A stretch of DNA of 22,594 bases from a virus: positions 1-22,594 of IMG/VR virus record IMGVR_UViG_3300046817_000643; one strand, 5' to 3'. The translations under genes were made by a program, and so were the position numbers. The notes under the pieces were generated by a model. That model searched no databases and had not been told where the DNA came from. It worked only from the letters and a program-made list of their open reading frames with translations. Below, one piece after another: positions 3,790-22,594 of the stretch; the first letter of the stretch is position 1; every line of letters begins with the position of its first letter.

Positions 3790-5301
3790 TTAGTTGATTC
3801 TGATTCCTTGGAGTCCTTTGGGGTTCCAATCTTCTCGACTACCATCCTCAAGTAAGCGAAACCTGTGAGCCCAGTTGTACCCGGCTACGGCTTCGCCGGG
3901 AATGGTCATGGAACGGTTGGCGAACTTCTGGGTGACTTGGATGCAGTCGAGAGCTTGTCGGAGCCAGTCCTGTTCCTCGGTTTCGTTGGTTTCCGGCATC
4001 TGGAAATACACGGCGTCATGTAGCTGACTCAGAATTTGGACCGGGCCTGTGCCCATCTTTTTCCAGAGACGGTAGAGTCCGAGGTTGAGACAGTCGCCCG
4101 TGGCGGACTGGAACAAGTACGCTATTCCGCCCTTTAGTGTGTCTGGGTCGTTCGGCCTGTCGAAGAAGTCTCGCTTTCTTCCAAAGGAATTGACCAAGAA
4201 TCTTTCCCGCTGAAGTTGTTGCGCTACCCATTCGTGCATCCGACGAATACATGGAAATGCTGTGAAGTATCTTTCCTGAAATTCCTCGACTAAGTTCTGT
4301 GGGATTCGAGTTTGTCGAGAGATTTCTCTAGGTGAGCCATAATAATTAGTAGCGTGACCGAGCCGTTTCGAAGCATCACGGAACGTAAATAGCCGATAGA
4401 ACCGCCTTTCGGCAATTTGGCGATCCTTTTTAAGATCGCCCGTCCAATCCCAATCTGGGTACAATAGACGCGTAACCGCAGTATGCAAATCTCCAGACTC
4501 ACACGCGTCCAGATAGCTCCAATCACCAAACATAATGCCACAGAACCAGCCCACATCGCGCGCTTCAGATTGCGCTTTGTCGATCCCGTAGAGTTTGAAT
4601 CCGAGGTCGGGAATAAAGACACGGCGAAGCTCCTCGGTTATGTTTTGGAAGTTGTTTCCGGTCTGTTTCCAGGCTTGGGACTCTTCGACGAAGGCCATGA
4701 AGGGGGATTTTGACGAAGAGAACCGGCCTGTAGTCGTTCCACCGATGTTGTAGGAACACCTCCATCGCCAGTCGGGGTCGATTTGAGTTTCAAGAACCTG
4801 AAGGGATTTCTTTAGATCTCGGTCGAGAAGAATTGCGTTGATGATGGGTTCGGCAAACTGGTCGGAAAGGGACAACTTTTCTAAAGTTTCCCGGTTCATG
4901 GGGCGTTTAACTTCGCCGTCGAGAACTCGCTCAATCGGTTTGAGTCCCATTCGGGAATAGAAAAGCTCTTGGAGTTGTTTCGGCGAGTTGGAAAGTTTGT
5001 TGGTATAGGATGCTCCAGTGGCGCTGACGAAGGCGGAAAGAATCCGTTCAAGGGAGTCTTGTTTTTCTTTCAGAATGATGATTGCGTTTTCTCTTTCGTG
5101 CATGTCAACCCGGAAACCACGACCCATCATTTCGAGGACCGGGCCTTGCATGGCGCGTTCGAGGTCATAGATCAGCGTGTCGTTTTCCCTTAACGCTTCG
5201 CGAGCCTGATCTATCTCGAACGTGAGAGCACAGTCGTAACCATTATAGACAGCCTGATTGCCAGCGTCGATAGGTAGGTCGTGTGCCTGTATAACTGGCA
5301 T
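3790..5301 (-). CDS. family A DNA polymerase, polymerase chain lacking most of its exonuclease domain
   Basis: This 503-residue chain carries all three family A polymerase motifs: TGRFSSS (191-197); motif A with D241 in YGIDKAQSEAR; motif B R308...K312...Y320/Y321-G; and motif C QLHDA (426-430), where the usual HDE is HDA. The position equivalent to E. coli Phe762 is His316. The first residues contain YNGYDCALTFEI (Y19, D23), which matches the Exo III YxxxD motif of the proofreading domain, but Exo I and Exo II are absent; they are on the UDG-exo protein at 6372..7673. A TTG lies directly before the chosen ATG at 5301. The ribosome site is weak, and the ATG overlaps the stop of a 22-codon ORF (TGATG), suggesting coupled translation. 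Confidence 0.93.
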   Translation of the reverse strand: MPVIQAHDLPIDAGNQAVYNGYDCALTFEIDQAREALRENDTLIYDLERAMQGPVLEMMGRGFRVDMHERENAIIILKEKQDSLERILSAFVSATGASYTNKLSNSPKQLQELFYSRMGLKPIERVLDGEVKRPMNRETLEKLSLSDQFAEPIINAILLDRDLKKSLQVLETQIDPDWRWRCSYNIGGTTTGRFSSSKSPFMAFVEESQAWKQTGNNFQNITEELRRVFIPDLGFKLYGIDKAQSEARDVGWFCGIMFGDWSYLDACESGDLHTAVTRLLYPDWDWTGDLKKDRQIAERRFYRLFTFRDASKRLGHATNYYGSPREISRQTRIPQNLVEEFQERYFTAFPCIRRMHEWVAQQLQRERFLVNSFGRKRDFFDRPNDPDTLKGGIAYLFQSATGDCLNLGLYRLWKKMGTGPVQILSQLHDAVYFQMPETNETEEQDWLRQALDCIQVTQKFANRSMTIPGEAVAGYNWAHRFRLLEDGSREDWNPKGLQGIRIN

Positions 5302-5369
5302 CAAATGCTCTCATTCAAGAGTTGTTGAGCCTCCCATTGCGACTTCCTGTACCCTAAGTACCGTCGCAT
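5301..5369 (-). CDS. 22-residue micro-gene coupled to the polymerase gene
   Basis: A 22-codon ORF (begins MRRYLGYRKSQW, then an amphipathic EAQQLLNE stretch) fills the gap between the SLOG-like gene and the polymerase exactly. Its ATG overlaps the upstream stop as TGATG, and its own TGA overlaps the polymerase ATG as TGATG. This double coupling explains why the polymerase ATG has only a weak ribosome site. It may be a real basic micropeptide or only a translational coupler; no homologue is known to me. Confidence 0.55.
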   Translation of the reverse strand: MRRYLGYRKSQWEAQQLLNESI

Positions 5370-9880: not shown

Positions 9881-10408
9881 CTAGGACGGGGTTGGCGACC
9901 CCTCCGACTTCTTCACTACGCCTGCCATCGAGTCGACGTTCTGGAGGTAGACCTTCCCGTTGTCGGCCGCTTCCGGAGTCCGGATGATCACGTCCCGGTC
10001 ACGGAAGACTTCCTGGGTCTCGGCGGTTGGGTTACCGTCGGTGTCGATCTTCATGTTGGTTCGGACCGACACGGCGGGGGAAAAGCCCAGGGTTTCCAGA
10101 AACCGACGCAAAATCTTCATTGCGTTCGGAGTCAGGTAGAAGTTCGCCGATGCCTCGTAGTCGGAAAGAGCGAAGCCCTGCGATTTCAAGTCTTCGATGA
10201 CCTTCGCCGGCACGTCGGCGCCGGGGTCGGTCAACTTCGCCGTGAACCGATACAGTGGCGTTTCCTTTCGGGAACTCCGGTCGGCGTAGACCCCGGTGAT
10301 CTTGCCGTAGAAGGTCTTCTTTGGGGGCAGGTCTGGTAAGTCGAGGAACTCCCCCATCGGCTTGTCGAGAAGGCCAGCGAGATCGACGGGTTCGGTAGGA
10401 TCGGACAT
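9881..10408 (-). CDS. phage protein, possibly single-stranded-DNA-associated
   Basis: A 175-residue protein starting MSDPTEPVDLAGLLDKPMGEF, with a beta-rich core (KTFYGKITGVYADRSSRKETPLYRFTAKL) and a MKILRRFLETLGF helix. A short strand opening FYGKI and followed by a conserved YRF block is reminiscent of OB-fold-like phage proteins placed beside Erf recombinases and primases. I do not recognise a defined family, so ssDNA binding is an inference from position and strand pattern. AAGGAAAC lies 8 nt before the ATG. GC content is visibly higher here than in the flanking genes. Confidence 0.62.
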   Translation of the reverse strand: MSDPTEPVDLAGLLDKPMGEFLDLPDLPPKKTFYGKITGVYADRSSRKETPLYRFTAKLTDPGADVPAKVIEDLKSQGFALSDYEASANFYLTPNAMKILRRFLETLGFSPAVSVRTNMKIDTDGNPTAETQEVFRDRDVIIRTPEAADNGKVYLQNVDSMAGVVKKSEGSPTPS

Positions 10409-12606: not shown

Positions 12607-13704
12607 TTATCGAGGGATTAAGGGGTCCCAGATTCTCTTTGGATAGAAGTTTTCTAGGATTTCGGGCCGAGAAGCTGGGTCAGCAGAGCACACGGGGCGA
12701 AATTGGCATTGCATGTAGCCGAAGCCGCAGCTGGTTTCTCGCATGGGCCAGTCATTTAATCTGACATTCTCTTCCAGTTCGGAGATGTATCGTTTGAAGC
12801 CCTTGAGAAATTCTTCGAAGTGTTCAGGAACACGTAATGCCTCGCGTCTTCGAAATCTGGTTCCGTTTACAAGAACCTGACATCCGTCGACAATTATGCC
12901 TCCGACTTCGTCCGGGAAAATTACTTGGGCCGCGAGAGAATAGAGCGTCATTTGAATGTCGGGGGAGTATTGATCGAAATAATTGTCATCGAGGGCGTAT
13001 TTGGTTGTCTTTTTGTCGAGGACGTAGATTAAACTCCCGATCCTGACGACTCGGTCCATATGACCGCAAAGAAGATACTCTTCCCCGCTGGGGGCAAGGA
13101 AGTCTTCGTCTTCGAGAAGGTCGTTGAGTGGGAAGCGGAAAGATAATTCAACTGCTGGCTTGCCGTTTTCGAGAGTTAGGGTTTCTAGCTTTTCGTCCTT
13201 GAAATAGTCGAGATACCAGATGGTTGTTCGGAGAAGGGTTTTCAGAGACTTTGTTGGTTCGGTACTGATCCAGGGGGACTTGTTCTTATGGTCGAAGGAA
13301 TAGTAGAGTAGCCACCTGACAACTACTAAGATCGCATCGTCGTGGCCGATGCCGGACCTGATGCTTCGGAGGAATTTTTCTTCGAGACCAGTCTTTCGAA
13401 GTTGACGATACAGCTTCCAGTCCCAATTTCCAATTACCAACTTTGTGTAAAGTTCTGTTCCAGCGTGGAATAAGGTTCCGAAAAATAAATGCGGATTTAG
13501 TCCTGTTCCGGAAAGGCTATGACCCAAGACGATGGAGTAGTAGTAGTTCCGCCAGCACTTTTTTCCGGCTTTGATGGAAGTGGAGTCATGGGCGATCTGG
13601 AGATGGGGAATGGTTGCTGAGAAGCTGGAATTGAGACTGACACCGAGGAGTATTTCGGTTTCATGTTCAACCGCTTCTACTGTGTCGAGGAGGTTTACGA
13701 GCAT
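12607..13704 (-). CDS. Cas4/RecB-like PD-(D/E)XK nuclease with probable Fe-S cluster
   Basis: This 365-residue protein has the layout of Cas4/AddB-type nucleases. GTLFHAG (76-82) gives the motif I His, VELSF (E186) and GHMDR (D217) the acidic residues, DKKTTK (230-235) the catalytic D-x-K, and QMTLYSLAA (251-259) the QxxxY motif. Four Cys (C50, C326, C333, C339 in CGFGYMQCQFRPVC) are placed as in Fe-S-containing family members, with one N-terminal and three C-terminal. It is probably a DNA end-processing exonuclease that makes single-stranded tails for the Erf annealing protein. The ATG overlaps the preceding gene by 10 nt. Confidence 0.85.
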   Translation of the reverse strand: MLVNLLDTVEAVEHETEILLGVSLNSSFSATIPHLQIAHDSTSIKAGKKCWRNYYYSIVLGHSLSGTGLNPHLFFGTLFHAGTELYTKLVIGNWDWKLYRQLRKTGLEEKFLRSIRSGIGHDDAILVVVRWLLYYSFDHKNKSPWISTEPTKSLKTLLRTTIWYLDYFKDEKLETLTLENGKPAVELSFRFPLNDLLEDEDFLAPSGEEYLLCGHMDRVVRIGSLIYVLDKKTTKYALDDNYFDQYSPDIQMTLYSLAAQVIFPDEVGGIIVDGCQVLVNGTRFRRREALRVPEHFEEFLKGFKRYISELEENVRLNDWPMRETSCGFGYMQCQFRPVCSADPASRPEILENFYPKRIWDPLIPR

Positions 13705-14004: not shown

Positions 14005-14289
14005 CTACAGTTCGATGTCGACAGCTTGGGAGTGGGTTTTTCGTTCCCGAACTTTCGGGGTTTTGTTCTGGTCTTCTTGGGTCCAACGATAGGCTTGCGC
14101 CCGGACCATGTTGACGAAAGAGGTTAAGTCCTTGTCGGTAATTCGACCTGGAAGCCCAGCGACAAGGTTCTGGTTGATCCGATCCAGAAGTTCATCGACC
14201 GCTTTTGGATCTGCTTCGGAGAGGGGCGAGTCTCCGTCGAGAAGGTCGAGAGCACCGCGAAGGGCAGCGGTCAGGTTGGGATCAGCCAT
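14005..14289 (-). CDS. small protein with C-terminal AVDIEL tail
   Basis: A 94-residue helical protein (begins MADPNLTAALRGALDLL) with a basic region KVRERKTHSQ immediately before a C-terminal AVDIEL. The tail is one of seven near-identical C-termini in the window. A helical segment FVNMVRAQAYRW loosely resembles AVRALRAGRAWV in the N-terminal part of the AAA+ ATPase, which also carries the motif; whether these are paralogous is uncertain. CAGGAAAACC precedes the ATG. No family recognised. Confidence 0.7.
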   Translation of the reverse strand: MADPNLTAALRGALDLLDGDSPLSEADPKAVDELLDRINQNLVAGLPGRITDKDLTSFVNMVRAQAYRWTQEDQNKTPKVRERKTHSQAVDIEL

Positions 14290-14494
14290 TGGATGGTTTT
14301 CCTGGAGCTACGAAACGCCACTTGGTTTGGATACGGACGCCGTCCAGTTCGATAGTTACGTCGCCGTCTTGGAAGACTTCGATGACTTGACAGGGACGTG
14401 GACGGGCGGCAACTTGGTCGTAATAGAGTCCGGGCATGTCTCCAGTGACTCTGCCCATGCCCAGGTCGTAGCCAGCGCGTTCGATGGAAGGCAT
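14282..14494 (-). CDS. hypothetical small protein with a beta-barrel-like C-terminal half
   Basis: A 70-residue protein with RPCQVIEVFQDGDVTIELDGVRIQTKWRFV, a pattern of short strands with Gly turns, seen in small SH3-like or KOW-like phage proteins. The function is unknown. CCGGAGC lies 9 nt before the ATG, and its stop overlaps the next gene's start by 8 nt. Confidence 0.62.
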   Translation of the reverse strand: MPSIERAGYDLGMGRVTGDMPGLYYDQVAARPRPCQVIEVFQDGDVTIELDGVRIQTKWRFVAPGKPSNG

Positions 14495-14498
14495 TTGG

Positions 14499-14729
14499 TT
14501 ATGCTCCGGGAATAGTGTCTTGGCCGAGACCTTTGAGTTCTACGTTTTTCCAGTAGTCAAGAATCACGAGAAGCTCTTGTCGGACTCGGGCAATTCGCGC
14601 GGCTTCAGAAGCGTTCGGACGGATCTGTTTTAGGGACTGATCCAGATGGTCAAGTCTTCGTTGGATGTCGGAGAGGAATTCGTCCTTGAGTTCGGAGATG
14701 GTTCTGGCGTGGGAGACGTATTGGGCCAT
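14499..14729 (-). CDS. hypothetical small helical protein
   Basis: A 76-residue protein that is almost wholly helical (SELKDEFLSDIQRRLDHLDQ and RVRQELLVILDYW) and could form a coiled coil. No family recognised. It has a strong ribosome site, AAAGGACTCCCTCC, before the ATG. Confidence 0.65.
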   Translation of the reverse strand: MAQYVSHARTISELKDEFLSDIQRRLDHLDQSLKQIRPNASEAARIARVRQELLVILDYWKNVELKGLGQDTIPGA

Positions 14730-14742
14730 GGAGGGAGTCCTT

Positions 14743-14940
14743 TCAGCTTTCTATCTTGTCCAAGGCTTCGCGCTGCTTTGCTTTCATCTGAAGCACAACG
14801 GAATGGACCATCTGTCGGATGATGGCATTTTCGCCCGATCCGCCGGAGCTGGCGATTTCTCGGATGAATTCCAAGTCGTCTTCCCAAAGCCTATGACAGA
14901 CTCGGACTTTGGGTACATCGCGGTCGGAAGAAGCGGGCAT
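14743..14940 (-). CDS. possible ribbon-helix-helix-type small protein
   Basis: A 65-residue protein with a basic strand KVRVCHRLW followed by two predicted helices (DDLEFIREIASS and ENAIIRQMVHSVVLQM). This strand-helix-helix order and size fit Arc/MetJ-type DNA-binding proteins, though no signature is conclusive. If correct, it would be the only visible candidate repressor. AAAAGGAACTCCTG precedes the ATG. Confidence 0.62.
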   Translation of the reverse strand: MPASSDRDVPKVRVCHRLWEDDLEFIREIASSGGSGENAIIRQMVHSVVLQMKAKQREALDKIES

Positions 14941-15128
14941 CAGGAGTTCCTTTTGGAGTCGAAGTCACCGGAACGGATTCTGTGCATAAATTTTAGAATG
15001 GCGTTTTCGGTTAGATTATATGGCGGATCATGGTTGAGCAAAAGATGTTCCAATGCTTCTGGAGTCATGCCTGTTGGAGCATAACCAAACCATAACAATG
15101 CCCATTCAAGTAATAGAGCGTAACTCAA
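14940..15128 (-). CDS. hypothetical small protein, TTG start
   Basis: A 62-residue protein (begins MSYALLLEWALLWFGY) with a hydrophobic first 15 residues and then a polar helical region. The TTG at 15128 overlaps the preceding stop by 4 nt (TTGA), with GGAG 9 nt upstream, matching the GTGA/ATGA junctions used elsewhere. An internal ATG at 15068 has no ribosome site. The N-terminus could associate with a membrane. No family recognised. Confidence 0.55.
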   Translation of the reverse strand: MSYALLLEWALLWFGYAPTGMTPEALEHLLLNHDPPYNLTENAILKFMHRIRSGDFDSKRNS

Positions 15129-15430
15129 AGGTCGATCTCCACTTCGTCTTTTTCGGGGTTTTCGTCCGGGTCGTCTGGCATAGGGACGTTGGGAGTGTTG
15201 ATGACCCAGATTTTGTTTTCGGGTTCAGTGGGATGTAACCGGACTTGAATGTGTTGCCAGTCTCGATTTTCTTTCTTAAACCGATACAATATCTGTTTTG
15301 CTCTAAGGGCTGGGGAGGGAAGGTCGCCGACGACTTCGACCTTGACTTCGAGTCCGATGTCAGACATCGCGGCCCGAGTCAGAATCTGTCGAGCGTTTTG
15401 GGCGAGGAGTGAGTTGTTGTCGGAAGGCAT
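15125..15430 (-). CDS. small protein with C-terminal VEIDL tail
   Basis: A 101-residue protein with a helix (LLAQNARQILTRAAM), then beta strands (IGLEVKVEVVG and HIQVRLHPTEPENKIWVI), and an acidic Pro-rich end DPDENPEKDEVEIDL. The last five residues match the shared tail of other small proteins here, although the preceding stretch is acidic rather than basic. GGAG lies 10 nt before the ATG. No family recognised. Confidence 0.66.
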   Translation of the reverse strand: MPSDNNSLLAQNARQILTRAAMSDIGLEVKVEVVGDLPSPALRAKQILYRFKKENRDWQHIQVRLHPTEPENKIWVINTPNVPMPDDPDENPEKDEVEIDL

Positions 15431-15433
15431 GGT

Positions 15434-15694
15434 TCAGATGCTCCACTCTGGCGCTTTGATAACGACCAGTCCTGTTGGATCATCGAGGAGTCCGAGGCCG
15501 ATTAGTCTATCACCACAAATGGAATTGAAATCTTGTTGAAGGATTATTGTCGGTTCGAGTTCGGAGACCCAATGCTGGAGCATTTGGTAGATCATAAACT
15601 CTCGCCGAAGATTTATCGACCGAGCGAGACGATTGGTATGCTGACTCAGGAGGTCTGAGTCTACCATTGGTGGAAGGGGTTTAAGACTGAACAT
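15434..15694 (-). CDS. hypothetical small protein
   Basis: An 86-residue protein (begins MFSLKPLPPMVDSDLL) with a helical REFMIYQMLQHWVSELEP segment and a hydrophobic C-terminal part (IGLGLLDDPTGLVVIKAPEW). No family recognised. The ribosome site is weak (ATAAGACTCTT). It fits between its neighbours with gaps of a few bases. Confidence 0.6.
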   Translation of the reverse strand: MFSLKPLPPMVDSDLLSQHTNRLARSINLRREFMIYQMLQHWVSELEPTIILQQDFNSICGDRLIGLGLLDDPTGLVVIKAPEWSI

Positions 15695-15701
15695 AAGAGT
15701 C

Positions 15702-15995
15702 TTATCCCAGTTCGATGTCGATGGCGTTGGAATATTCGAGTCGGAGTTCTAGGCCGATCGCCGCGAGGGATTGGGAATAGGCGTCGACTTTTGCTTCGAC
15801 GCGGGTCTTGGCTCGTTCGATGATGGAGGGGTCGATGGAAAGCAGCTGGTCGATGTGGATTTCTAGGGCTGAGTCCTTGGGAAGCGGGAGTGGCGGGTCG
15901 AGCTTGGATAATTTATCCTCGATGATTGCGGTCGCTAACGCCCGAGCTTCGCGGGAGATTAGGTCTTCGAGACTTGCTTTTTTGGTATTGGCCAT
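15702..15995 (-). CDS. small protein with C-terminal AIDIELG tail
   Basis: A 97-residue helical protein (LEDLISREARALATAIIEDKLSKL early; IIERAKTRVEAKVDAYSQSL later) that ends NAIDIELG. The tail belongs to the shared C-terminal motif family and is here followed by one Gly. TAGGAAT precedes the ATG. No family recognised. Confidence 0.68.
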   Translation of the reverse strand: MANTKKASLEDLISREARALATAIIEDKLSKLDPPLPLPKDSALEIHIDQLLSIDPSIIERAKTRVEAKVDAYSQSLAAIGLELRLEYSNAIDIELG

Positions 15996-16004
15996 TTTTT
16001 ATTC

Positions 16005-16412
16005 CTAGAGAAGAGAATCCAGGTCGATGTCGATAGCTTGGTTTTTTCTTTTTGGTTTTTTATCGGCGGCCCGTAGGTCTCGAACTTGGTCTTCGATGCT
16101 TGGTTCGCCGAAGAAGATTCCGGCCTCGCGCTGTTTGACTTGCCAGGAAAGGCTGACAGAAAAGGAAAGAGACAAGGCTCGAATCTCGTCGGAACTTGGC
16201 GGTTCGTCGAGGATGATGTGGAGGTTGTATCCCCGATCGAGGATGGCGAATCTTCCGGACTTGAGGGGAATTACAAGAACCGCGACGTTGGAATACTTTA
16301 GCGACAGGGCTTCTTGAGCATCTGGGTTTGTGACCGGGTCGAGGTCAGGATTAAGTTCCTGATCCTCTACCAGTTCGAGTTGGAGTTCCTCTGAGTCGGT
16401 AATGTTGGCCAT
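16005..16412 (-). CDS. small protein with C-terminal AIDIDLDSLL tail
   Basis: A 135-residue protein with an acidic N-terminus (EELQLELVEDQEL), a central beta-rich block (NVAVLVIPLKSGRFAILDRGYNLHIIL), and a basic segment KKPKRKNQ directly before AIDIDLDSLL at the C-terminus. The basic-polar-AIDIDLD arrangement parallels KRRKSQDINIDLDD inside the AAA+ ATPase. The ribosome site is weak (ATAGGC). The upstream 85-nt gap contains a direct repeat. No family recognised. Confidence 0.67.
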   Translation of the reverse strand: MANITDSEELQLELVEDQELNPDLDPVTNPDAQEALSLKYSNVAVLVIPLKSGRFAILDRGYNLHIILDEPPSSDEIRALSLSFSVSLSWQVKQREAGIFFGEPSIEDQVRDLRAADKKPKRKNQAIDIDLDSLL

Positions 16413-16497
16413 CTGTCGGTTAGCCTATCATGGGGAGGGGAGGTAGGCAAGGGGAAGGAAAGAGGCATACATGGAAGGGGCTTCAGTAGGCATACAT
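16413..16497. other. 85-nt gap with 10-bp direct repeat and G-rich tract
   Basis: The coding strand carries ATGTATGCCT twice, at 16488-16497 and 16463-16472, spaced by 15 nt. A pyrimidine-rich run follows, whose complement on the plus strand (16432-16465) is G-rich with several GG and GGGG runs. The first repeat reads as a 4-codon ORF and the second as a 14-codon ORF, neither with a ribosome site. It may regulate expression of the gene at 16005..16412, but no promoter is evident. Confidence 0.4.
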
Positions 16498-16728
16498 TTA
16501 TTTTACGACTCTTAACTTTGGTTTCTTCTCTAGGTCACGCCAAGGTGTGATAGGTTTGCTTACACGAACGTCACGGAGAGAGTCGAACAACAAGTCTTCT
16601 GGAGGACGATTGCCGCCAAAAGTTTCTAGATTGGTTATGATACAGTTTCGGATTTCGGCGAAGTCGACTCCTGTTGGTACTTTGAATTCCAAGAGAACTT
16701 GGATTGTTTTCAATCGTTCTTTTCTCAT
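16498..16728 (-). CDS. hypothetical small protein
   Basis: A 76-residue protein (begins MRKERLKTIQVLLEFKVP) with a beta strand, a helix (DFAEIRNCIITNLETF) and another strand, DVRVSKPI. The order resembles a small ferredoxin-like fold, but no family is recognised. CCGGAG lies 10 nt before the ATG. Confidence 0.62.
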   Translation of the reverse strand: MRKERLKTIQVLLEFKVPTGVDFAEIRNCIITNLETFGGNRPPEDLLFDSLRDVRVSKPITPWRDLEKKPKLRVVK

Positions 16729-16749
16729 TTCTTTTTCTCCGGGAGAGCT

Positions 16750-16797
16750 TTAAGGGCGGCGTCTATTGGACGACGGAAAATTCCTTGGCCATTGCAT
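16750..16797 (-). CDS. possible 15-residue coupled mini-ORF
   Basis: Fifteen codons (begins MQWPRNFP, ends with a basic NRRRP) whose ATG overlaps the preceding stop as TGATG and whose TAA falls just before the ribosome site of the next gene. Geometry is the same as for the 22-codon micro-gene at 5301..5369, but with only 15 codons and no conserved content it may be chance. Confidence 0.25.
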   Translation of the reverse strand: MQWPRNFPSSNRRRP

Positions 16798-17141
16798 CAA
16801 AGGTCCAGGTCGATGTCGATTGCTGAGGAATGTTTTTCTTTTTGTTTTTCTTTTCGGGGCTTGGATCCAGAGCCAGACTCAGACACAGACACAGACACAG
16901 ATTCAGATTTATGCACTGGGGAGGGATTTTCTTTCGGGTCGGATAGCTTTCGCCCCGTCTTGGGTTCGGTGATGTTGGCGAAACGAGTCGCCAGTTCTTT
17001 GATTTCGTGAAGGTAGGCTGTTACTTTCATCTCCGCCCGGTCTCGTTGGTCGCGGAGACTCTCGGCGAGTGAAATTACGGCTTCGATGTTGCCGGCGTCG
17101 AGAAGGGCTCGAATGGCTGAGTTAAGCGAGGGTTCAGACAT
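16797..17141 (-). CDS. small protein with Ser-Glu repeat and C-terminal AIDIDLDL tail
   Basis: A 114-residue protein with an N-terminal helical domain (IRALLDAGNIEAVISLAESL; DRAEMKVTAYLHEIKELATR), then a repeat-derived linker SESVSVSVSESGSGS, a basic stretch KPRKEKQKEKHSS, and the tail AIDIDLDL. It shows the modular order domain-flexible linker-basic-tail most clearly. The ATG at 17141 has GGAGAAG upstream and overlaps the preceding stop by 8 nt (ATGTCTGA). No family recognised for the helical domain. Confidence 0.72.
   Translation of the reverse strand: MSEPSLNSAIRALLDAGNIEAVISLAESLRDQRDRAEMKVTAYLHEIKELATRFANITEPKTGRKLSDPKENPSPVHKSESVSVSVSESGSGSKPRKEKQKEKHSSAIDIDLDL
16874..16920. repeat. 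dispersed Ser-Glu-coding repeat, copy 2
   Basis: Plus-strand CAGACTCAGACACAGACACAG-type units (16876 onward) end in CAGATT, followed a few bases later by GCACTGGG (16913-16920). It encodes the Ser-Glu-Val linker of the tail-bearing protein at 16797..17141. The GCACTGGG block is read in a different frame here than in the copy at 19435..19481. Confidence 0.6.
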
Positions 17142-17361
17142 TGTTCTTCTCCAGAATTTGGCGCGATTTCTGGGCGGCTTCAATGTAGCCTTTGTGATCG
17201 GTGTCGATCAGAAGCTGAAGCAGGTCGTTAGCAAGGAAGAAGTCGAGGTCGAGATGGTTTTTGTTGAAGATGTCGAGGAGCTTTTCGAGGCGCTCTCGGT
17301 TTCTTGGCTCAGAGTAGGATTCGATGCGTTCGGGAGTCATGATGATGCTGGGTTGAGACAT
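17134..17361 (-). CDS. hypothetical small helical protein
   Basis: A 75-residue protein (begins MSQPSIIMTPERIESY) with helices RERLEKLLDIFNKNH, FFLANDLLQLLI and GYIEAAQKSRQILEK. It looks like a small helical bundle. GCGGAG lies 12 nt upstream of the ATG. Its stop overlaps the next gene by 8 nt. No family recognised. Confidence 0.63.
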   Translation of the reverse strand: MSQPSIIMTPERIESYSEPRNRERLEKLLDIFNKNHLDLDFFLANDLLQLLIDTDHKGYIEAAQKSRQILEKNNV

Positions 17362-17366
17362 TGGAA

Positions 17367-17453
17367 TTAAAACTCCGCAAAGAGGGCAAAGAGGGCGGCA
17401 ATGAGAACGACTCCCGCCAGGAAGTTGATGACGTTGTTGAAGAGATTGGTCAT
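17367..17453 (-). CDS. 28-residue single-helix membrane peptide
   Basis: A 28-codon gene (MTNLFNNVINFL, then AGVVLIAALFALFAEF) that is mostly one hydrophobic helix. TAAAGGAACTTCA precedes the ATG at 17453, which overlaps the previous stop by 4 nt (ATGA). A longer reading of the frame would add an Arg/Ser-rich segment that belongs to the overlapping gene in another frame. It is the second tiny membrane peptide in this block. Role unknown. Confidence 0.7.
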   Translation of the reverse strand: MTNLFNNVINFLAGVVLIAALFALFAEF

Positions 17454-17638
17454 TGAAGTTCCTTTAGAATTGCGTCGCGAATTCGATAGAAGCGGATTTT
17501 GAGGTCTGTTGGCACCTCGGCTTCGTTGACTTCGACGTCGAAGTTGGAGATTTTCCGCCAACGTCCACCAACATCGCGGGAGCTGGCACGGAAGTTCCAG
17601 TCATTCGATCGAAGATCGAGACCAAAAAGCTCTTTCAT
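17450..17638 (-). CDS. hypothetical small protein
   Basis: A 62-residue protein (begins MKELFGLDLRSNDWNFR) with a short beta region (VGGRWRKISNFDVEV) and a C-terminal helix (KIRFYRIRDAILKELQ). No family recognised. AAAGGAAAAGGACTC precedes the ATG; 4-nt overlaps exist with the genes on both sides. Confidence 0.64.
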   Translation of the reverse strand: MKELFGLDLRSNDWNFRASSRDVGGRWRKISNFDVEVNEAEVPTDLKIRFYRIRDAILKELQ

Positions 17639-18252
17639 GAGTCCTTTTCCTTTCTCTCAAAGGTTCCGAGAAGTCTGTCATAGAGGAAGAATTTCAATCC
17701 TTCGTAGTTTCCTTTTTCTACGTCGGCAAGTTTGCCCGAGCGGATTTCGCCGTTGAGGAAATAGATTACGTTTTTGGTTTCGTAGGAAATGACTCGAATG
17801 TCCATGAAACCGAGTTCGACCAAGGCGTCGAGGACGGCGCGGAGATTGCCAACGATAGTTGTTCCGGCCTTCGTCGGGTCGATGATGATTATTGTAACCG
17901 CGAGATTCTGTATCCCGACTTGTTCTTCAGGCTTTTTTAAATTTATTTCTGAGGGATAATAGGCTACCATGAGTCCGGACAAATCTGGTCTCATGAAGTC
18001 TTCGCCCAGGCCGGATTTCCAGGCACAAGCGAAGGTAGAGCAGGCGACAGGTCTACTTTCGTAGATCGAGCATCGTTTGCACGGATCGGTTCCGTCGAGC
18101 TTGGAACAAGATTGGTTTGGGTATTTTTTCAAGGCTTCAATGCCGACAACGACACAACAGGCATAGCATTCCCCGCAAGGACGGAGGTTCAACCCAGATT
18201 CAGACACAGATACAGATTCAGATTCAGGCACTGGGGCTTCAGTTTCAGACAT
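17635..18252 (-). CDS. YkgJ-type CxxCxxCC metal-binding protein
   Basis: This 205-residue protein has C26GECYAC32C33, then C49, C58/C61 and C71, C76 in a context (SKLDGTDPCKRCSIYESRPVAC) that matches the zinc/iron-chelating CxxCxxCC domain family typified by YkgJ. The N-terminal 20 residues are a Ser-Glu linker (VPESESVSVSESG) encoded by the dispersed repeat. The C-terminal half is beta-rich with a hydrophobic VTIIIIDP strand and no known motif. Possible roles are metal sensing or Fe-S related chemistry; biochemical function of the family is poorly defined. CAAGGAAAC lies upstream of the ATG. Confidence 0.82.
   Translation of the reverse strand: MSETEAPVPESESVSVSESGLNLRPCGECYACCVVVGIEALKKYPNQSCSKLDGTDPCKRCSIYESRPVACSTFACAWKSGLGEDFMRPDLSGLMVAYYPSEINLKKPEEQVGIQNLAVTIIIIDPTKAGTTIVGNLRAVLDALVELGFMDIRVISYETKNVIYFLNGEIRSGKLADVEKGNYEGLKFFLYDRLLGTFERKEKDS
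18195..18236. repeat. dispersed Ser-Glu-coding repeat, copy 3
   Basis: Plus-strand CAGATTCAGACACAGATACA units followed directly by GCACTGGGG (18228-18236). It encodes the N-terminal linker of the CxxCxxCC protein. Confidence 0.6.
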
Positions 18253-18256
18253 GGCT

Positions 18257-18544
18257 TCAGTTTCCTTGAAAGATCAGAAGGAGAATTGTTGCTTGGATTT
18301 TGTTGAAGATTTCTGGGACTTCTTCCATGTCCGATCGGCCGTGGATTGAGAGAACTTTTCCGAGCAGGTTGGAGAGAAGTTCGCAGATTTCGTGAGCGGT
18401 TCGGATGTCGTGTTTTTCGAGGATTTCGACGATTTCGATTCCGACTGTTCCGATCCGATTTATTCTAGCGGCTTCTTCATCCGTACGTCCGGTTTCTTCG
18501 GCCCGGGAAATTAGGGTTTTGAGTTCGTCGATTCGGGTGGTCAT
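18257..18544 (-). CDS. hypothetical helical protein
   Basis: A 95-residue, wholly helical protein (IDELKTLISRAEETGRTDEE; GIEIVEILEKHDIRTAHEICELLSNLL read as separate helices). It could form a bundle or coiled coil. The ATG overlaps the stop of the acidic AAA+ partner gene as ATGA, so all three genes from 21374 down are probably co-translated. No family recognised. Confidence 0.65.
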   Translation of the reverse strand: MTTRIDELKTLISRAEETGRTDEEAARINRIGTVGIEIVEILEKHDIRTAHEICELLSNLLGKVLSIHGRSDMEEVPEIFNKIQATILLLIFQGN

Positions 18545-19866
18545 GGAGTCTGTCTTTCCATTCTGAGGGATTTGAGAAGAGATTCTGCTGCAACTTCGAC
18601 GGCGAGGTTGGCGGATTCTGGGGTTTCGGAACCCTTACTTCCGGGGACGAAAATCGTGTTGGGATTGGTGTCGTTGCGGTCATGGACTGGGATGCCGTAC
18701 CAGCCTTTGAGGTCTGATTCAAGTTCTTTCGTTTGTTCCAACAGAGCAAAAGCGAGTCTTCGCATCGACGCTGGATGGGCAATGGCAAATGCTGCCCGGT
18801 CGATGTCGAGATATTCGCCGGCCTTTTTATACACGATAGAATAGCGCCAAGTTTTGCTGCCTGACCTGGTGTTCCCGATGATTCGGAGTTCGGTTGAGAT
18901 GCCTTGGGCTTCGAGTCGAGAAGCGAGGCTCAAGACCGCTGCGCCCCGAAGCATCATGTCATTCACGGTAACGTAGGCGCTGATCCAGTGGTTGTAGTCA
19001 ATTCGAACGATTGGCTTGGAGGTTCGATGGTCCGCTCCAGGATCAACAGCCATACAGCTTGGATCACCGGAACAATAGACTGGAACGATTGGGTATCCTC
19101 CAGCAACGGAGAATTCGATGGTTGGATAATAGGTTGGCCGAGGAGATACGCGGGCGAAACTGTCAGTCAGTAGTTTTCGCCCCTCGGGCCAGCCGGTTGA
19201 AACGGCCATAGTCACCGCTTCGTCGAAGGTTTTGGTTCCGAACCAAGATTCATCTTTCCTTTCATGGCTGGTACAGTTTTCTTTTTTCCAGGTTCGTAAA
19301 CTCTGGTCCAAGACGCATTTGACGAAATTGCTCCAGGAATCAAATTCCCTATGAACACAGGTAGAATTTCGTTCCGAATAGGTCCAGCTCCAGTCGTCAG
19401 GGTTTGGGTCCTGGCCTCCCGAGATTTTTCCTTCAGGTTCAGATACAGATTCAGAGTCAGATTCTGTTGGTATGCACTGGGAATCTAGATCTTCTTCAGA
19501 ATCGGTTTCAGACTCTGAGTCAGGGTCGAACTCATCGCCGTTGGGGAGGTCGCCATCATCTGGGTCTGAGCCGGCTTCTGAATCAGAATCTTCGTCAGAT
19601 TCCTCTCCTTCTTCTGGCCCCACTTCCTGACCTTCGGCATCGCCGCTCTCTCCCGCATCTCGTGCTTCCGAGTCATCTTCGTTCTCCTCTGAATCTTGGT
19701 CTTGATCCTGACCTGAACCTCCGCCCGAGTTAGGCGGTTCTGGCCAGCCAAATAGGGCGAACCAGGCAGCGGCGGAAGTTAGGTCAGAAAAAGCCCCGAT
19801 CGTCTTGTGTGCCCAGCGTGGGTCTGGATCGGAGGAAATTGGTTCTGGTTTGTTGTCTAGGGGCAT
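18541..19866 (-). CDS. acidic partner of the AAA+ ATPase, CobT/VWA-like (DUF7192-type)
   Basis: This 441-residue protein has an N-terminal hydrophobic patch (30-45), then about 100 residues (50-147) made almost entirely of Asp, Glu, Ser, Gly and Gln, then a folded region beginning HREFDSWSNFVKCVLD. The folded part has SWFGTKTFDEAV, GWPEGRK, YPIVPVYCSGDP and a RGAAVLSLASRLEAQGISTELRII block, which I associate with a phage family annotated DUF7192. The last block has a strand-helix-strand pattern like the von Willebrand A fold, but the DxSxS metal site is not evident. An acidic linker before a VWA-like domain, and co-translation with a MoxR/CobS-type ATPase (TGATG junction), recall CobT. The ATG has GGAGGGAG upstream. 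Confidence 0.7.
   Translation of the reverse strand: MPLDNKPEPISSDPDPRWAHKTIGAFSDLTSAAAWFALFGWPEPPNSGGGSGQDQDQDSEENEDDSEARDAGESGDAEGQEVGPEEGEESDEDSDSEAGSDPDDGDLPNGDEFDPDSESETDSEEDLDSQCIPTESDSESVSEPEGKISGGQDPNPDDWSWTYSERNSTCVHREFDSWSNFVKCVLDQSLRTWKKENCTSHERKDESWFGTKTFDEAVTMAVSTGWPEGRKLLTDSFARVSPRPTYYPTIEFSVAGGYPIVPVYCSGDPSCMAVDPGADHRTSKPIVRIDYNHWISAYVTVNDMMLRGAAVLSLASRLEAQGISTELRIIGNTRSGSKTWRYSIVYKKAGEYLDIDRAAFAIAHPASMRRLAFALLEQTKELESDLKGWYGIPVHDRNDTNPNTIFVPGSKGSETPESANLAVEVAAESLLKSLRMERQTP
19435..19481. repeat. dispersed Ser-Glu-coding repeat, copy 4
   Basis: Plus-strand CAGATACAGATTCAGAGTCAG followed by ctgttggtatgcactggg (19464-19481). The 15-mer cagattcagagtcag (19446-19460) occurs identically at 21707-21721, where it is read in another frame. 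Encodes part of the acidic segment of the AAA+ partner. Confidence 0.62.
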
Positions 19867-21374
19867 CAATTTACTCCCTCCAACTCCAGCTCCTGATCCT
19901 GGGTCCTGTTCTCAGGTTGCTCAGGAGGAAGAAGTAACTCAAATTTCCCAGCAATGTTAACTATGCGGGAAACTGTGTCGGGATCGAGGCCGCGCCAGAG
20001 TTGGGCTTTACAGACTTCGTCGGCCCCGTCACCGTCACGGATGTCTTGGAGTCCGCGAGCAGAAGCGCGCATGGAGACGATATGATCCAGTCTTAACTGA
20101 GCTATGGCTCCGCGAACTTTCTGGACGTACTTTATCCAGGGATGATTTCCATAGATTTGGATTTCGAGAGCCGGATCATAGTCCACGACCTCATAGGCAA
20201 ACCGGTCCAGGCTCGCTGCGTCGAGTGGGTTTCGCCCCTGGTATTGCATGGTGGCGCCGTGTCCGTAAGTGTTGGCGGCGACAATACATCTGAACCGAGG
20301 GTGAACTTTCAGGATTCCGTTGGGGAATGCGCCGAAGTCGTTGGCGAGGATGGAATTTAGTGCTCCAAGGGCAGCGGCGGCCCACATGTCGGCTTCGTCA
20401 ATACATAACAGTCCGCCGTCTCGAACACACTCGTAAACTAGAGTTTCGATGTATTCTCCGGTTGGCGACTTGAAGCCTTTTACGTCGTACTTGGTCAGGG
20501 CTTGATCTATTGGGAAGAATTCGGTTTCGAGGTTATAGCCTGCTCCGACACAAACCTGTTTGAACAAATGGGTCTTGCCGGTTCCTGCGCCGCCGACCAT
20601 GTAGACGTGCTGTCCGCGAAGGATCCGCTTCAGAATCCGTGGAAACGCTTCATGCCTTGGTTCTGCGTCGAGATTTATGATTTCTTTATTATTGATTTTT
20701 ATTTCTAGCCGCCTCGGCAGGTTCTTGTTGATGATGTCTTCTGCAACTGCGTGGGCAACTTCTGCTCCTGCATCGCTCGCGAGTCCAACGATCTTGGATT
20801 TCATATCCTCGGACAAGGTCAGCACCGCTTCGCGCAACTTCGAACTCAGCTGAGAATCGACCTGGAGTCGAAGGTCTTGGGTTGCTTTGTTGAGTCGGGG
20901 AACGATGACCGCCTCGGCTGCGCGGGCGATGGCGCGCTCGTCGATGACCAGATTTCGCTTCTGATTCTGGTCCTGATTCTGCTCCGTGTTGGGAGGCTCA
21001 GGAAACTGGTCTTTAAATGGACTCGGAACTTCGCTTCCCTCGTCTAAAAGACCGTTGATCTCGTCGTCCAGGTCGATGTTAATGTCCTGACTTTTTCGCC
21101 GTTTTGGCACGTTTCCAAAACGCTTGTTCAAGTCTTCGTTGACGATGTTGTTGGTCACCCAGGCTCTTCCGGCCCTGAGAGCCCTGACTGCTCCTTCATT
21201 CGACATGGAAATGGTTTTGCGCTCGGAAACGCCGAGAGTCTGGAGCCATTCGTTGATGAGGAAGCGGGTATTTTCTGTCAGAGCTGGAATTGGTTTCCAC
21301 GAAGGATCGCCTGGAGAGAGCGAAACCAGTTTCAAGCTGTCTTCGAGGGATTTGAGGCGTTCTAGGTCGGCCAT
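19866..21374 (-). CDS. MoxR/CobS-like AAA+ ATPase with internal INIDLD motif
   Basis: This 502-residue protein has a C-terminal AAA+ module: Walker A GGAGTGKT (261-268), Walker B LLCIDEAD (322-329), sensor-like IVAANTYGHG (364-373) and an arginine-finger region DAASLDRF (385-392). The sequence style is that of MoxR/CobS/gas-vesicle GvpN ATPases, which remodel partner complexes through a VWA-type protein. Residues 145-215 are long helices. The N-terminal 110 residues are not part of the AAA+ fold and contain KRRKSQDINIDLDDEI (91-106), which matches the C-terminal tails of seven small proteins here. The next gene is coupled by TGATG. AAAGGTACG precedes the ATG. Confidence 0.87.
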   Translation of the reverse strand: MADLERLKSLEDSLKLVSLSPGDPSWKPIPALTENTRFLINEWLQTLGVSERKTISMSNEGAVRALRAGRAWVTNNIVNEDLNKRFGNVPKRRKSQDINIDLDDEINGLLDEGSEVPSPFKDQFPEPPNTEQNQDQNQKRNLVIDERAIARAAEAVIVPRLNKATQDLRLQVDSQLSSKLREAVLTLSEDMKSKIVGLASDAGAEVAHAVAEDIINKNLPRRLEIKINNKEIINLDAEPRHEAFPRILKRILRGQHVYMVGGAGTGKTHLFKQVCVGAGYNLETEFFPIDQALTKYDVKGFKSPTGEYIETLVYECVRDGGLLCIDEADMWAAAALGALNSILANDFGAFPNGILKVHPRFRCIVAANTYGHGATMQYQGRNPLDAASLDRFAYEVVDYDPALEIQIYGNHPWIKYVQKVRGAIAQLRLDHIVSMRASARGLQDIRDGDGADEVCKAQLWRGLDPDTVSRIVNIAGKFELLLPPEQPENRTQDQELELEGVN

Positions 21375-21389
21375 TGCACGTACCTTTGT

Positions 21390-21644
21390 TTAAGAGTTGT
21401 AGGGGCAGGAACTCAGATCATGGGAATTGGAGTCAGAACAAAGCACGTTGTGAATGAACAGTTCCCGGTGGAAGTTGGGTTCGTGGTCGGACAGGTCTTT
21501 CGCAAAGTCTTTGACAAATTCGATAAAGTTGGGGAGCACGTCTTCGTACGGTCCCCAGGAGTAAGTCGAGTTTTTGGCCCGAACTAGACCTTTTTGCAAG
21601 ATCTTTGTCAGGGTTTCGTAATCTCTTTTGGAGAAATGGGACAT
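21390..21644 (-). CDS. small phage protein with DxxFxRExF-type end
   Basis: An 84-residue protein (begins MSHFSKRDYETLTKIL) with NFIEFVKDFAKDLSDHEPNFHRELFIHNV. The last block resembles the NPxFxxxRF helix of small helical proteins common in phage early regions, whose function is unknown. The start at 21644 lies just past the preceding stop. The frame is open further upstream, but that part overlaps the tail-bearing gene and is rejected. Confidence 0.65.
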   Translation of the reverse strand: MSHFSKRDYETLTKILQKGLVRAKNSTYSWGPYEDVLPNFIEFVKDFAKDLSDHEPNFHRELFIHNVLCSDSNSHDLSSCPYNS

Positions 21645-21649
21645 GGAAT

Positions 21650-21889
21650 CTATAGCTCGATGTCGATGACGGAGTTTCTGGAAACTTGTCTTGCCGTGTG
21701 GCGTTTCAGATTCAGAGTCAGTGTCTTGTTGTCGATGAAGAGGTTTCTTCGCGACATTGCGGCTTCTGGAAAGGCTTCTAAAGCCGCCTTTCTCGACTCG
21801 AAGGCCCATTTCCAAGTTCCGAAACGAGGATGGAATATGGTCCAGAGCCCTGGAATTGGCTGTTTGATTTTGAGTTCGGTGAGATTCAC
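21650..21889 (-). CDS. small protein with C-terminal VIDIEL tail
   Basis: A 79-residue protein (begins with GTG; NLTELKIKQPIPGLWTIF) with a beta-rich N-terminal half, GTWKWAFESRKAALEAF in the middle, a basic stretch LKRHTARQVSRNS, and the tail VIDIEL. The dispersed repeat 15-mer lies inside this gene and is read as LTLNL rather than Ser-Glu. The GTG overlaps the preceding stop by 4 nt (GTGA). No family recognised. Confidence 0.66.
   Translation of the reverse strand: MNLTELKIKQPIPGLWTIFHPRFGTWKWAFESRKAALEAFPEAAMSRRNLFIDNKTLTLNLKRHTARQVSRNSVIDIEL
21707..21721. repeat. short copy of the dispersed repeat, read in another frame
   Basis: cagattcagagtcag is identical to 19446-19460. Here it encodes LTLNL within the tail-bearing protein at 21650..21889, not Ser-Glu. 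Confidence 0.5.
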
Positions 21890-22062
21890 GACTTGAGTAT
21901 CCGCTTATAGGCTTCCATGAGTCTGTCAAACTCAGCAGCGCACCGCATGATGTTGGCAGCTTTCCGGACCTCCTCTTGAAGATAGAGGCCGTCGTGATAG
22001 CATTGGAACAAGAATGCAGCTGTTGTTCGTGGCGACGGCGGCTTTACAGATTTGGTTTTCAT
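21886..22062 (-). CDS. hypothetical small protein
   Basis: A 58-residue basic helical protein (begins MKTKSVKPPSPRTTAAFLF) with HDGLYLQEEVRKAANI and EFDRLMEAYKRILKS. No family recognised. TAAAGGACTCCAAACC precedes the ATG at 22062; the frame is open upstream but has no supporting ribosome site and overlaps the tail-bearing neighbour. Confidence 0.65.
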   Translation of the reverse strand: MKTKSVKPPSPRTTAAFLFQCYHDGLYLQEEVRKAANIMRCAAEFDRLMEAYKRILKS

Positions 22063-22075
22063 GGTTTGGAGTCCT

Positions 22076-22594
22076 TTAGAGGTCAATCTCGATGGCGTCA
22101 TCGAACGAGCCAGAAGTTGGGATCTTTCCGCCGATCTTTTTGGGAGCTTTTGAATTAGTTTCTTTTTGTGGATTGTAACTGACTGAAACACCGTTCGCCA
22201 TGACTTCGATCCGACGCGGGCGGCGAGCGGCGGGAATTACTTTGTTGGCTAGGGTTATGTCTTTGTGGTCAGAGACGATGCCCCGCCAAATATCCTGAGA
22301 ACGTCTTAGTTCTGCCTGCTCGCGACGTTCGAGCATCTTTTGCTTTTCGTCTTCGCTGGCATTGTCGAATTTCTTTTGCCAGTCGCTAATGTGGGCGGCC
22401 CTGGCTTCAGCAATTCGCTGTTCTCTAACAACTTGTGGGTCGAGACGTTCTGTTGTGGTCGGGGCGGGTTTCGCCGCCTTGGCTTTTGATAAAAGTTCGA
22501 CCAGAGCGGCTTGAATCCCTGCGGGGAGATCGTTGAAGGAAATTCCTTCGATCTTGTCCCGAGCTGCTCCGCCTTGGCCCGGCGCTTCACAGAT
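22076..22594 (-). CDS. 3' part of a gene for a protein with C-terminal AIEIDL tail, cut by the window edge
   Basis: The frame is open from the right edge to the stop at 22076, giving at least 172 residues with no start needed inside the window. An internal ATG at 22336 lies within a helical Arg/Glu-rich region (EKQKMLERREQAELRRSQ) and is not the likely start. The visible part is Ala/Lys/Glu-rich and helical, then a basic, Pro-rich stretch (PQKETNSKAPKKIGGKIP), then GSFDDAIEIDL. The tail is the seventh C-terminal copy of the shared motif. No family recognised. Confidence 0.72.
   Translation of the reverse strand: MCEAPGQGGAARDKIEGISFNDLPAGIQAALVELLSKAKAAKPAPTTTERLDPQVVREQRIAEARAAHISDWQKKFDNASEDEKQKMLERREQAELRRSQDIWRGIVSDHKDITLANKVIPAARRPRRIEVMANGVSVSYNPQKETNSKAPKKIGGKIPTSGSFDDAIEIDL

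Follow-up and report, generated by a model that had tools for sequence, protein, structure and literature searches.

PCNA-interacting protein (PIP) boxes and the clamp-binding motifs of bacteria are short motifs that follow a basic or flexible stretch and bring many unrelated clients to one hub. In phage T7, the acidic C-terminal tail of gp2.5 docks on the polymerase gp5. The acidic C-terminal tail of T7 gp4 docks on gp5 as well, which is a family A polymerase (PMC12593628). The C-terminal tip of bacterial single-stranded DNA-binding protein (SSB; DDDIPF) is the acidic-hydrophobic end of a disordered linker and organises many proteins of DNA metabolism (PMC7145534, PMC5872125). In phage T4, unrelated small basic internal proteins (IPI-IPIII, Alt) share a short terminal targeting peptide, the capsid targeting sequence (CTS), and related phages carry CTS-like ends on other proteins (PMC9026906, PMC9391042). 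Here we analyzed a C-terminal peptide tag on seven unrelated proteins encoded by the IMG/VR virus contig IMGVR_UViG_3300046817_000643. The contig was covered in full (22.6 kb, hereafter the window) and has every gene on the minus strand. Related phages each carry a private version of this tag on several of their own proteins. Its nearest analogues are the T4 CTS, the T7 acidic tails and the SSB tip; all three follow some of the same logic, but none matches the tag in every defining feature. Searches of the open-access literature brought up no account of a C-terminal tag used throughout a phage and differing in dialect from one phage to the next.

A preliminary description of the window had listed seven C-terminal tails. 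All are present, in frame and on the minus strand, in open reading frames (ORFs) with stops at 14005, 15125, 15702, 16005, 16797, 21650 and 22076 (Table 1; genes called with a simple in-house caller). The tail is the exact protein end in 4 of the 7 (14005, 15125, 21650 and 22076), and the remaining three extend past the motif by 1 (G), 2 (DL) or 4 (DSLL) residues. The strict pattern [AVI][IV][DEN]I[DE]L matches 6 of the 7 tails; that of 15125, EVEIDL, matches the core [IV][DE]I[DE]L only. Thus counted, 6 of the 45 window proteins carry the strict motif within 10 residues of the C-terminus, compared to 0.0025 expected (maximum 1) when the last 25 residues of each protein were shuffled in 20,000 rounds. 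Whole-protein shuffling gave an expectation of 0.002, and the strict motif occurs nowhere else in the 45 proteins. When a relaxed motif was searched in a six-frame translation, the coding-strand matches were these C-termini and one internal copy, SQDINIDLDDEINGLL, at ~21086 in an AAA+ protein. Note that all copies are C-terminal or lie within about 25 residues of the C-terminus, except this copy in the AAA+ linker. The C-terminal motif is real and far beyond chance. It was also described as standing on proteins with no common sequence upstream, and this holds: without their last 12 residues the carriers show no convincing similarity (best pair 14005/16797, E=0.014). The mean charge of carriers is +1.9 at residues -30 to -10 and -2.4 over the last ten, as opposed to 0.0 for all proteins. 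For the 15125 protein, AlphaFold2 (AF2) models a domain with good confidence (folded core 8-78), from which the tail extends at low confidence; the model had no significant match in the PDB.

The tails are conserved among homologues. The two outcomes that the preliminary description had named as refuting, a motif no commoner than in shuffled proteins and homologues without the tail, were thus both checked, and neither was observed. Three near relatives by polymerase identity (G001, 79%; G010, 65%; G011, 65%) encode homologues of most carriers, with the tail kept in register and changed conservatively. In family 14005 (AVDIEL, VIDVEIPEF, AIDIGDLFQ, AVDLNLAMDL), the homologues in the examined relatives have a tail. 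The tails of family 16005 are AIDIDLDSLL, AIEIEIPLDD, AIDIDL and DDLAIDL, and a protein similar to this family in locus L123 ends in VIDITL. Family 15702 has AIDIELG, VIEIEI, PIDIDL and ALDLDIDP, and family 16797 has AIDIDLDL, VIEVEIGDI, AIDIDL and LSLALDL. Family 15125 retains a tail in G010 (ALEIDL) and G011 (DEIDL), and in G001 it is gone. The 22076 homologue of G011 ends in LTLAIDL, and proteins of the 22076-like type carry AVDITDLF in G010, ADESVL in G016 and ISVEKIL in G024. A further set of carriers, upstream in the early operon (G010 35690-36217, G011 66961-67698, G016 59053-59445, G024 44146-44526 and window 22076-22594), apparently forms one diverged family of no known function.

Tails are found on some members of a protein type and missing from others. 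G010 encodes about ten carriers, including an HNH endonuclease (AIDIDL) and a helix-turn-helix-like fragment within the structural cluster (AIDIGDLFE); a similar HNH protein of G011 is without the tail. A SprT-like protease of G019 ends in ELSLDDLED, and a ribbon-helix-helix (RHH)-like protein is tagged in L123 and untagged in the window. Judged from these sequences, the tail is modular. Codons differ freely within dialects, for example GCC ATC GAC ATC GAC CTC versus GCT ATA GAC ATT GAT CTA in G010, and GAC CTC GAT CTC GAC CTA versus GAA TTG GAT TTG GAT TTA in L159. Codon choice varies among the window tails too. The preliminary description had read this variation, along with the Asp/Glu and Ile/Val swaps, as a sign of selection on the peptide, and together with the conservative changes in homologues the wider comparison bears this out: because the codons diverge freely while the peptide stays, the peptide and not the DNA is under selection.

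For the comparison between phages, more distant relatives were reached via the nuclease that adjoins family w14005, ten of them being taken as full contigs. The relatives are mainly uncultivated contigs; the isolates Microcystis phage Mel-JY34 and Caulobacter phage Kuura (complete) and the Manatee Spring genome MW202489 were examined besides. A megablast search with the window returned no match among known phages, the AAA+ protein and the polymerase as sole queries recovered just near copies or distant polymerases, and a scan of genome contigs found no prophage relatives. In an unbiased comparison of C-termini, each related phage had its own tail common to several non-homologous proteins: LTLADLGL (G022), LSLDLGELKL (G023), ELDLSDLDD or ELSLDDLED (G019), LSVSVADIL (G024), DEEDAGF (G025), DESIL (G016) and SLSDIGL (G021). 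Newly fetched loci added VIDITL or VIDIDL on four proteins (L123), TIEDLGL (L114) and LELDLDL (L159). Helix-like dialects were also seen (DELLEMFK, DADELLAGLE), and one clade has basic ends (LRRRF, IKRRF, GLRRI). Among the loci L136-L171, the basic tails of one clade (KRRF, FRRL, LRRI) often follow a DLxxLGL element, suggesting that the tail may comprise two separable elements. Mel-JY34, Kuura and MW202489 have similar tag sets, although some carriers in Mel-JY34 and MW202489 resemble paralogues of each other. Candidate tags of Kuura are AELNIDDLFSE (gene 036) and ADLSIDDLLSTL (gene 051).

The uniformity of tails within genomes was supported by three formal tests in agreement, which, unlike the per-genome regular expressions, were not designed post hoc. 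With family 14005 tails as seeds, own-genome matches amounted to 29/970 compared to 94/15302 for other genomes (p=1e-10). When the genome labels were permuted 100,000 times, matches averaged 7.6 and reached 25 at most, against the 29 observed. In an all-pairs test of non-homologous proteins from 27 newly fetched loci, matches were 15/4074 for same-locus and 5/12619 for cross-locus pairs (p=2.7e-6), with 1/4074 for internal segments. An unbiased scan of C-terminal pairs within one genome at a time gave weak results for G001, G010 and G011, probably due to noise from paralogues and low-complexity ends; the seed-based and non-homologous-pair tests resolved this weakness. Each related phage thus has a private dialect, uniform within its genome and divergent between genomes, as expected from a tag that co-evolves with one phage-encoded receptor. 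We infer such co-evolution of receptor and tag.

The preliminary description had interpreted the tails as a docking tag read by one hub and had named an AAA+ complex, a polymerase, a scaffold or a host target as candidates. The docking itself is well supported, as the tail is kept in homologues, modular, encoded by differing codons and present in a per-phage version. The AAA+ hub is unsupported, a scaffold or capsid hub is disfavoured because phages with 12-29 structural genes in common have dissimilar tags, a conserved host target is disfavoured as well, and the polymerase is now one among several remaining candidates. The evidence tips slightly in favour of a general reading, in which private C-terminal address peptides are in use across a broad group of lytic phages. 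A co-evolving phage-encoded receptor, with its charge preference reversed in one clade, would gather fast-changing unrelated proteins at one hub, and new genes would be recruited by gaining the tail. In molecular terms, the tail would be a short linear docking motif ending a flexible basic linker and read by a single phage-encoded receptor. In the present subgroup of phages it may add as a β-strand, as suggested by the alternating hydrophobic and acidic residues.

The receptor would most probably lie within the replication core. In the window, the replication module comprises a DUF3987 protein, the family A polymerase, a uracil-DNA glycosylase (UDG)-exonuclease-like protein, a ParB-methylase fusion, a CHC2 zinc-finger protein, an OB-fold SSB, ERF and a PD-(D/E)XK nuclease, with a run of small genes upstream in the transcription sense. 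The nuclease, SSB and polymerase are candidate hubs because they are universal (each in 15/15 genomes) and untagged; none of the core replication proteins matches the tag dialect of its own genome. Through the tags, a set of accessory proteins (RHH-like, HNH, SprT-like protease, AAA+ ATPase and many ORFans), some of which handle DNA, might be tethered to replicating phage DNA. We give about an even chance to docking on this core, that is on the SSB, the family A polymerase or the PD-(D/E)XK nuclease, without naming the subunit. A charge-complementarity search over seven core proteins pointed to the nuclease (p=6e-4), followed by the w15125 family (p=0.02). The nuclease, whose gene adjoins that of the near-universal carrier w14005, is the one large core protein with a net charge that shifts opposite to the tag charge in the basic-tag clade. 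However, the acid-tag group shows no charge trend, and since the basic-tag phages form one clade the shift counts as a single evolutionary event, a hint only.

Several observations weigh against the replication core. All core proteins show about the same correlation with tag similarity (rho 0.22-0.44), so that none stands out as the hub, and across 11 genomes tag similarity is uncorrelated with polymerase identity. Most carriers are without known function. Some lie in or beside the structural cluster (G010 15662-15919, G010 32842, G011 64151, G025 1898), a placement that a pure replication role would not require. The receptor is at present a candidate, and presence of the carriers at replication forks is proposed.

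If the address-peptide reading is true, it would show how phages connect newly gained genes to machinery already in place. Small ORFans that offer no functional handle make up most phage genes. A tag specific to each phage brings many of these ORFans into one group, predicts a common site of action and gives a simple rule for finding further members. The receptor would be findable as a phage protein that prefers the dialect of its own genome, and naturally diversified peptide/receptor pairs would be available for study.

Comparison with the replication systems introduced above defines what is distinct here. As with T7 gp4 and gp2.5, an acidic C-terminal peptide would tether proteins to one hub in a phage with a family A polymerase. 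In T7, however, the tails are on the helicase and SSB themselves, whereas in the present phages the tag is missing from the core enzymes and found on many accessory proteins. SSB presents one tip to many pockets; in the present case there are many tips and presumably one pocket, and the phage OB-fold SSB (w9881) and its homologues lack the acidic C-terminal tip usual for SSBs. In contrast to both T7 and SSB tails, the tags end in Leu or vary (L or G in the window) without a fixed terminal aromatic residue; the G025 dialect does end in one (..DEEDAGF), but most dialects do not. Separately, an 85-residue protein of G019 (38051-38308; L048:1071-1328) ends in DLDDEIPF, a near-perfect bacterial SSB C-terminal tip. 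PIP and clamp motifs resemble the tags in being short, in occurring on many unrelated proteins and in coming after a basic or flexible stretch, but the tag sequence differs wholly between related phages, and its first position in the window is A, V, E or D instead of the invariant Gln of QL[SD]LF or QLxLxL. No clamp family was found among the window proteins scanned. No encapsulin shell gene appeared among the annotated matches, although no search was aimed at encapsulins.

Among other explanations we considered a capsid-targeting tag, whereby the tail binds the prohead core, scaffold or portal and the carriers enter the capsid, to be injected along with the DNA, like the T4 internal proteins. 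The T4 CTS is a direct precedent, since there, too, several unrelated small proteins of a single phage have a short terminal peptide in common, with carrier sets that vary among related phages. The carriers in our phages are likewise fast-changing ORFans of small size that contain a basic stretch, and the genes for a few of them fall within the structural cluster or next to it. A search for proteomics of Kuura found none. Yet the T4 sequence is N-terminal, cleaved by gp21 and read by the prohead core, whereas the present tag is C-terminal, sits almost exclusively on early-operon proteins amid replication genes, and is held internally by a large AAA+ ATPase. Moreover, the dialects do not follow the head/scaffold module: pairs among G011, G013, G016 and G024 have 10-29 homologous structural genes in common and unlike tags, while G001 and G010 have zero structural homologues in common and similar tags. 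Capsid targeting is therefore unlikely, though it is the rival we rate highest. Docking on a host factor (a protease adaptor, the sliding clamp or RNA polymerase), with tags varying because hosts vary, seems improbable. Lytic phages commonly bind host hubs such as these, and AIDIDL has a superficial likeness to clamp-binding motifs in their hexapeptide form. The conserved Gln is absent, however, and conserved host surfaces would not account for the charge reversal and the strong divergence of tags among related phages; a conserved host target is hard to square with this divergence together with the uniformity within each phage. Likenesses to clamp motifs, FtsZ tails and SUMO motifs were considered and dropped, as defining residues or the partner are lacking.

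Within-genome uniformity and between-genome divergence would also arise without a hub if the tags bound each other, for example by shared β-strand stacking. The alternating hydrophobic/acidic tails are strand-like and, following basic linkers, could pair with neighbours. But net acidic tails should repel each other, and self-complementarity is not obvious in the helix-like and basic (LRRRF) dialects, making homotypic assembly about as improbable as a host target. We would assign a still lower probability to the tails being substrate or adaptor signals for a phage AAA+/VWA-like pair (CobS/CobT-like). In the window, G010 and G011, the tag gene cluster does include an AAA_5 ATPase and a partner, and acidic residues are established ligands of metal ion-dependent adhesion site (MIDAS) domains, which fits such a hub. 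Nevertheless, the ATPase itself bears the tag in its linker (SQDINIDLDD in the window; TSAAIDIGDAF, SRRRTSAAIDIGDAF, in the G010 counterpart), suggesting that it is a client and not the hub. It is also absent from tagged G019, G021, G022 and G023 and from the complete phage Kuura, so that ATPase and tag do not occur together throughout, and the ATPase is excluded as a general hub. The window partner, DUF7192, has no canonical MIDAS by eye, whereas in G010, where the tag is nearly identical, the CobT-like protein is a different one and contains DNSGSM. Least probable by far is a site in the DNA at gene ends (for recombination or regulation) that is translated by chance, or a recent duplication of gene ends. 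ATCGACATCGA is common to several window tails, and ATC and GAC are favoured codons; against this, the peptide is stable within a dialect despite synonymous divergence, which rules out a DNA repeat for most dialects, homologues replace residues conservatively, and the tail is always in the coding frame.

Table 1. Tails, internal tag copy, candidate hubs and AAA+ ATPase of the window.
Feature	Coordinates	Strand	Remarks
Tail AVDIEL	14008..14025	-	94-residue protein 14005-14289; family w14005, usually immediately upstream of the PD-(D/E)XK nuclease gene
Tail EVEIDL	15128..15145	-	101-residue protein 15125-15430
Tail AIDIELG	15705..15725	-	97-residue protein 15702-15995
Tail AIDIDLDSLL	16008..16037	-	135-residue protein 16005-16412
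Tail AIDIDLDL	16800..16823	-	128-residue ORF 16797-17183; real start probably internal
Tail VIDIEL	21653..21670	-	79-residue protein 21650-21889
Tail AIEIDL	22079..22096	-	172+-residue protein 22076-22594; 5' end truncated by contig edge
Internal copy DINIDL (KRRKSQDINIDLDDEINGLL)	21069..21086	-	AAA+ protein, linker joining N-terminal domain to AAA+ domain
AAA_5/CobS-like ATPase	19866..21374	-	Pfam AAA_5 3.5e-8, PHROG 249 5e-43; internal tag copy
PD-(D/E)XK nuclease, Cas4-like	12607..13704	-	Four invariant Cys; near w14005 gene; untagged candidate hub
OB-fold single-stranded DNA-binding protein (w9881)	9881..10408	-	AF2 pLDDT 90.6; best PDB match PrgE 8s4s E=3e-5, next SSBs; untagged candidate hub
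Family A DNA polymerase	3790..5304	-	Pfam 3.6e-23; untagged candidate hub

Several features of the neighbouring genes were also recorded. The invariant cysteines of the nuclease (C50, C326, C333, C339) follow an Fe-S cluster pattern as in Cas4/AddB. The family A polymerase domain is on a protein separate from the UDG-family-4 protein (6372-7673), which has an extra, probably exonuclease, region. A ParB N-terminal domain is fused to an N6/N4 DNA methylase (7670-9115), a fusion kept in most of the phage group. The DUF7192 protein (18541-19869), which comes after the CobS-like AAA_5 ATPase, has a long acidic low-complexity N-terminus and resembles a VWA domain without a canonical MIDAS; G010 instead encodes a true CobS-type ATPase (TIGR01650, 2.4e-126) together with its CobT-like protein. 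Finally, repeated runs of Ser alternating with Glu, Asp or Val (SESVSVSESGSGS) occur in the neighbouring proteins 16797-17183, 17635-18252, 18541-19869 and 21390-21929.

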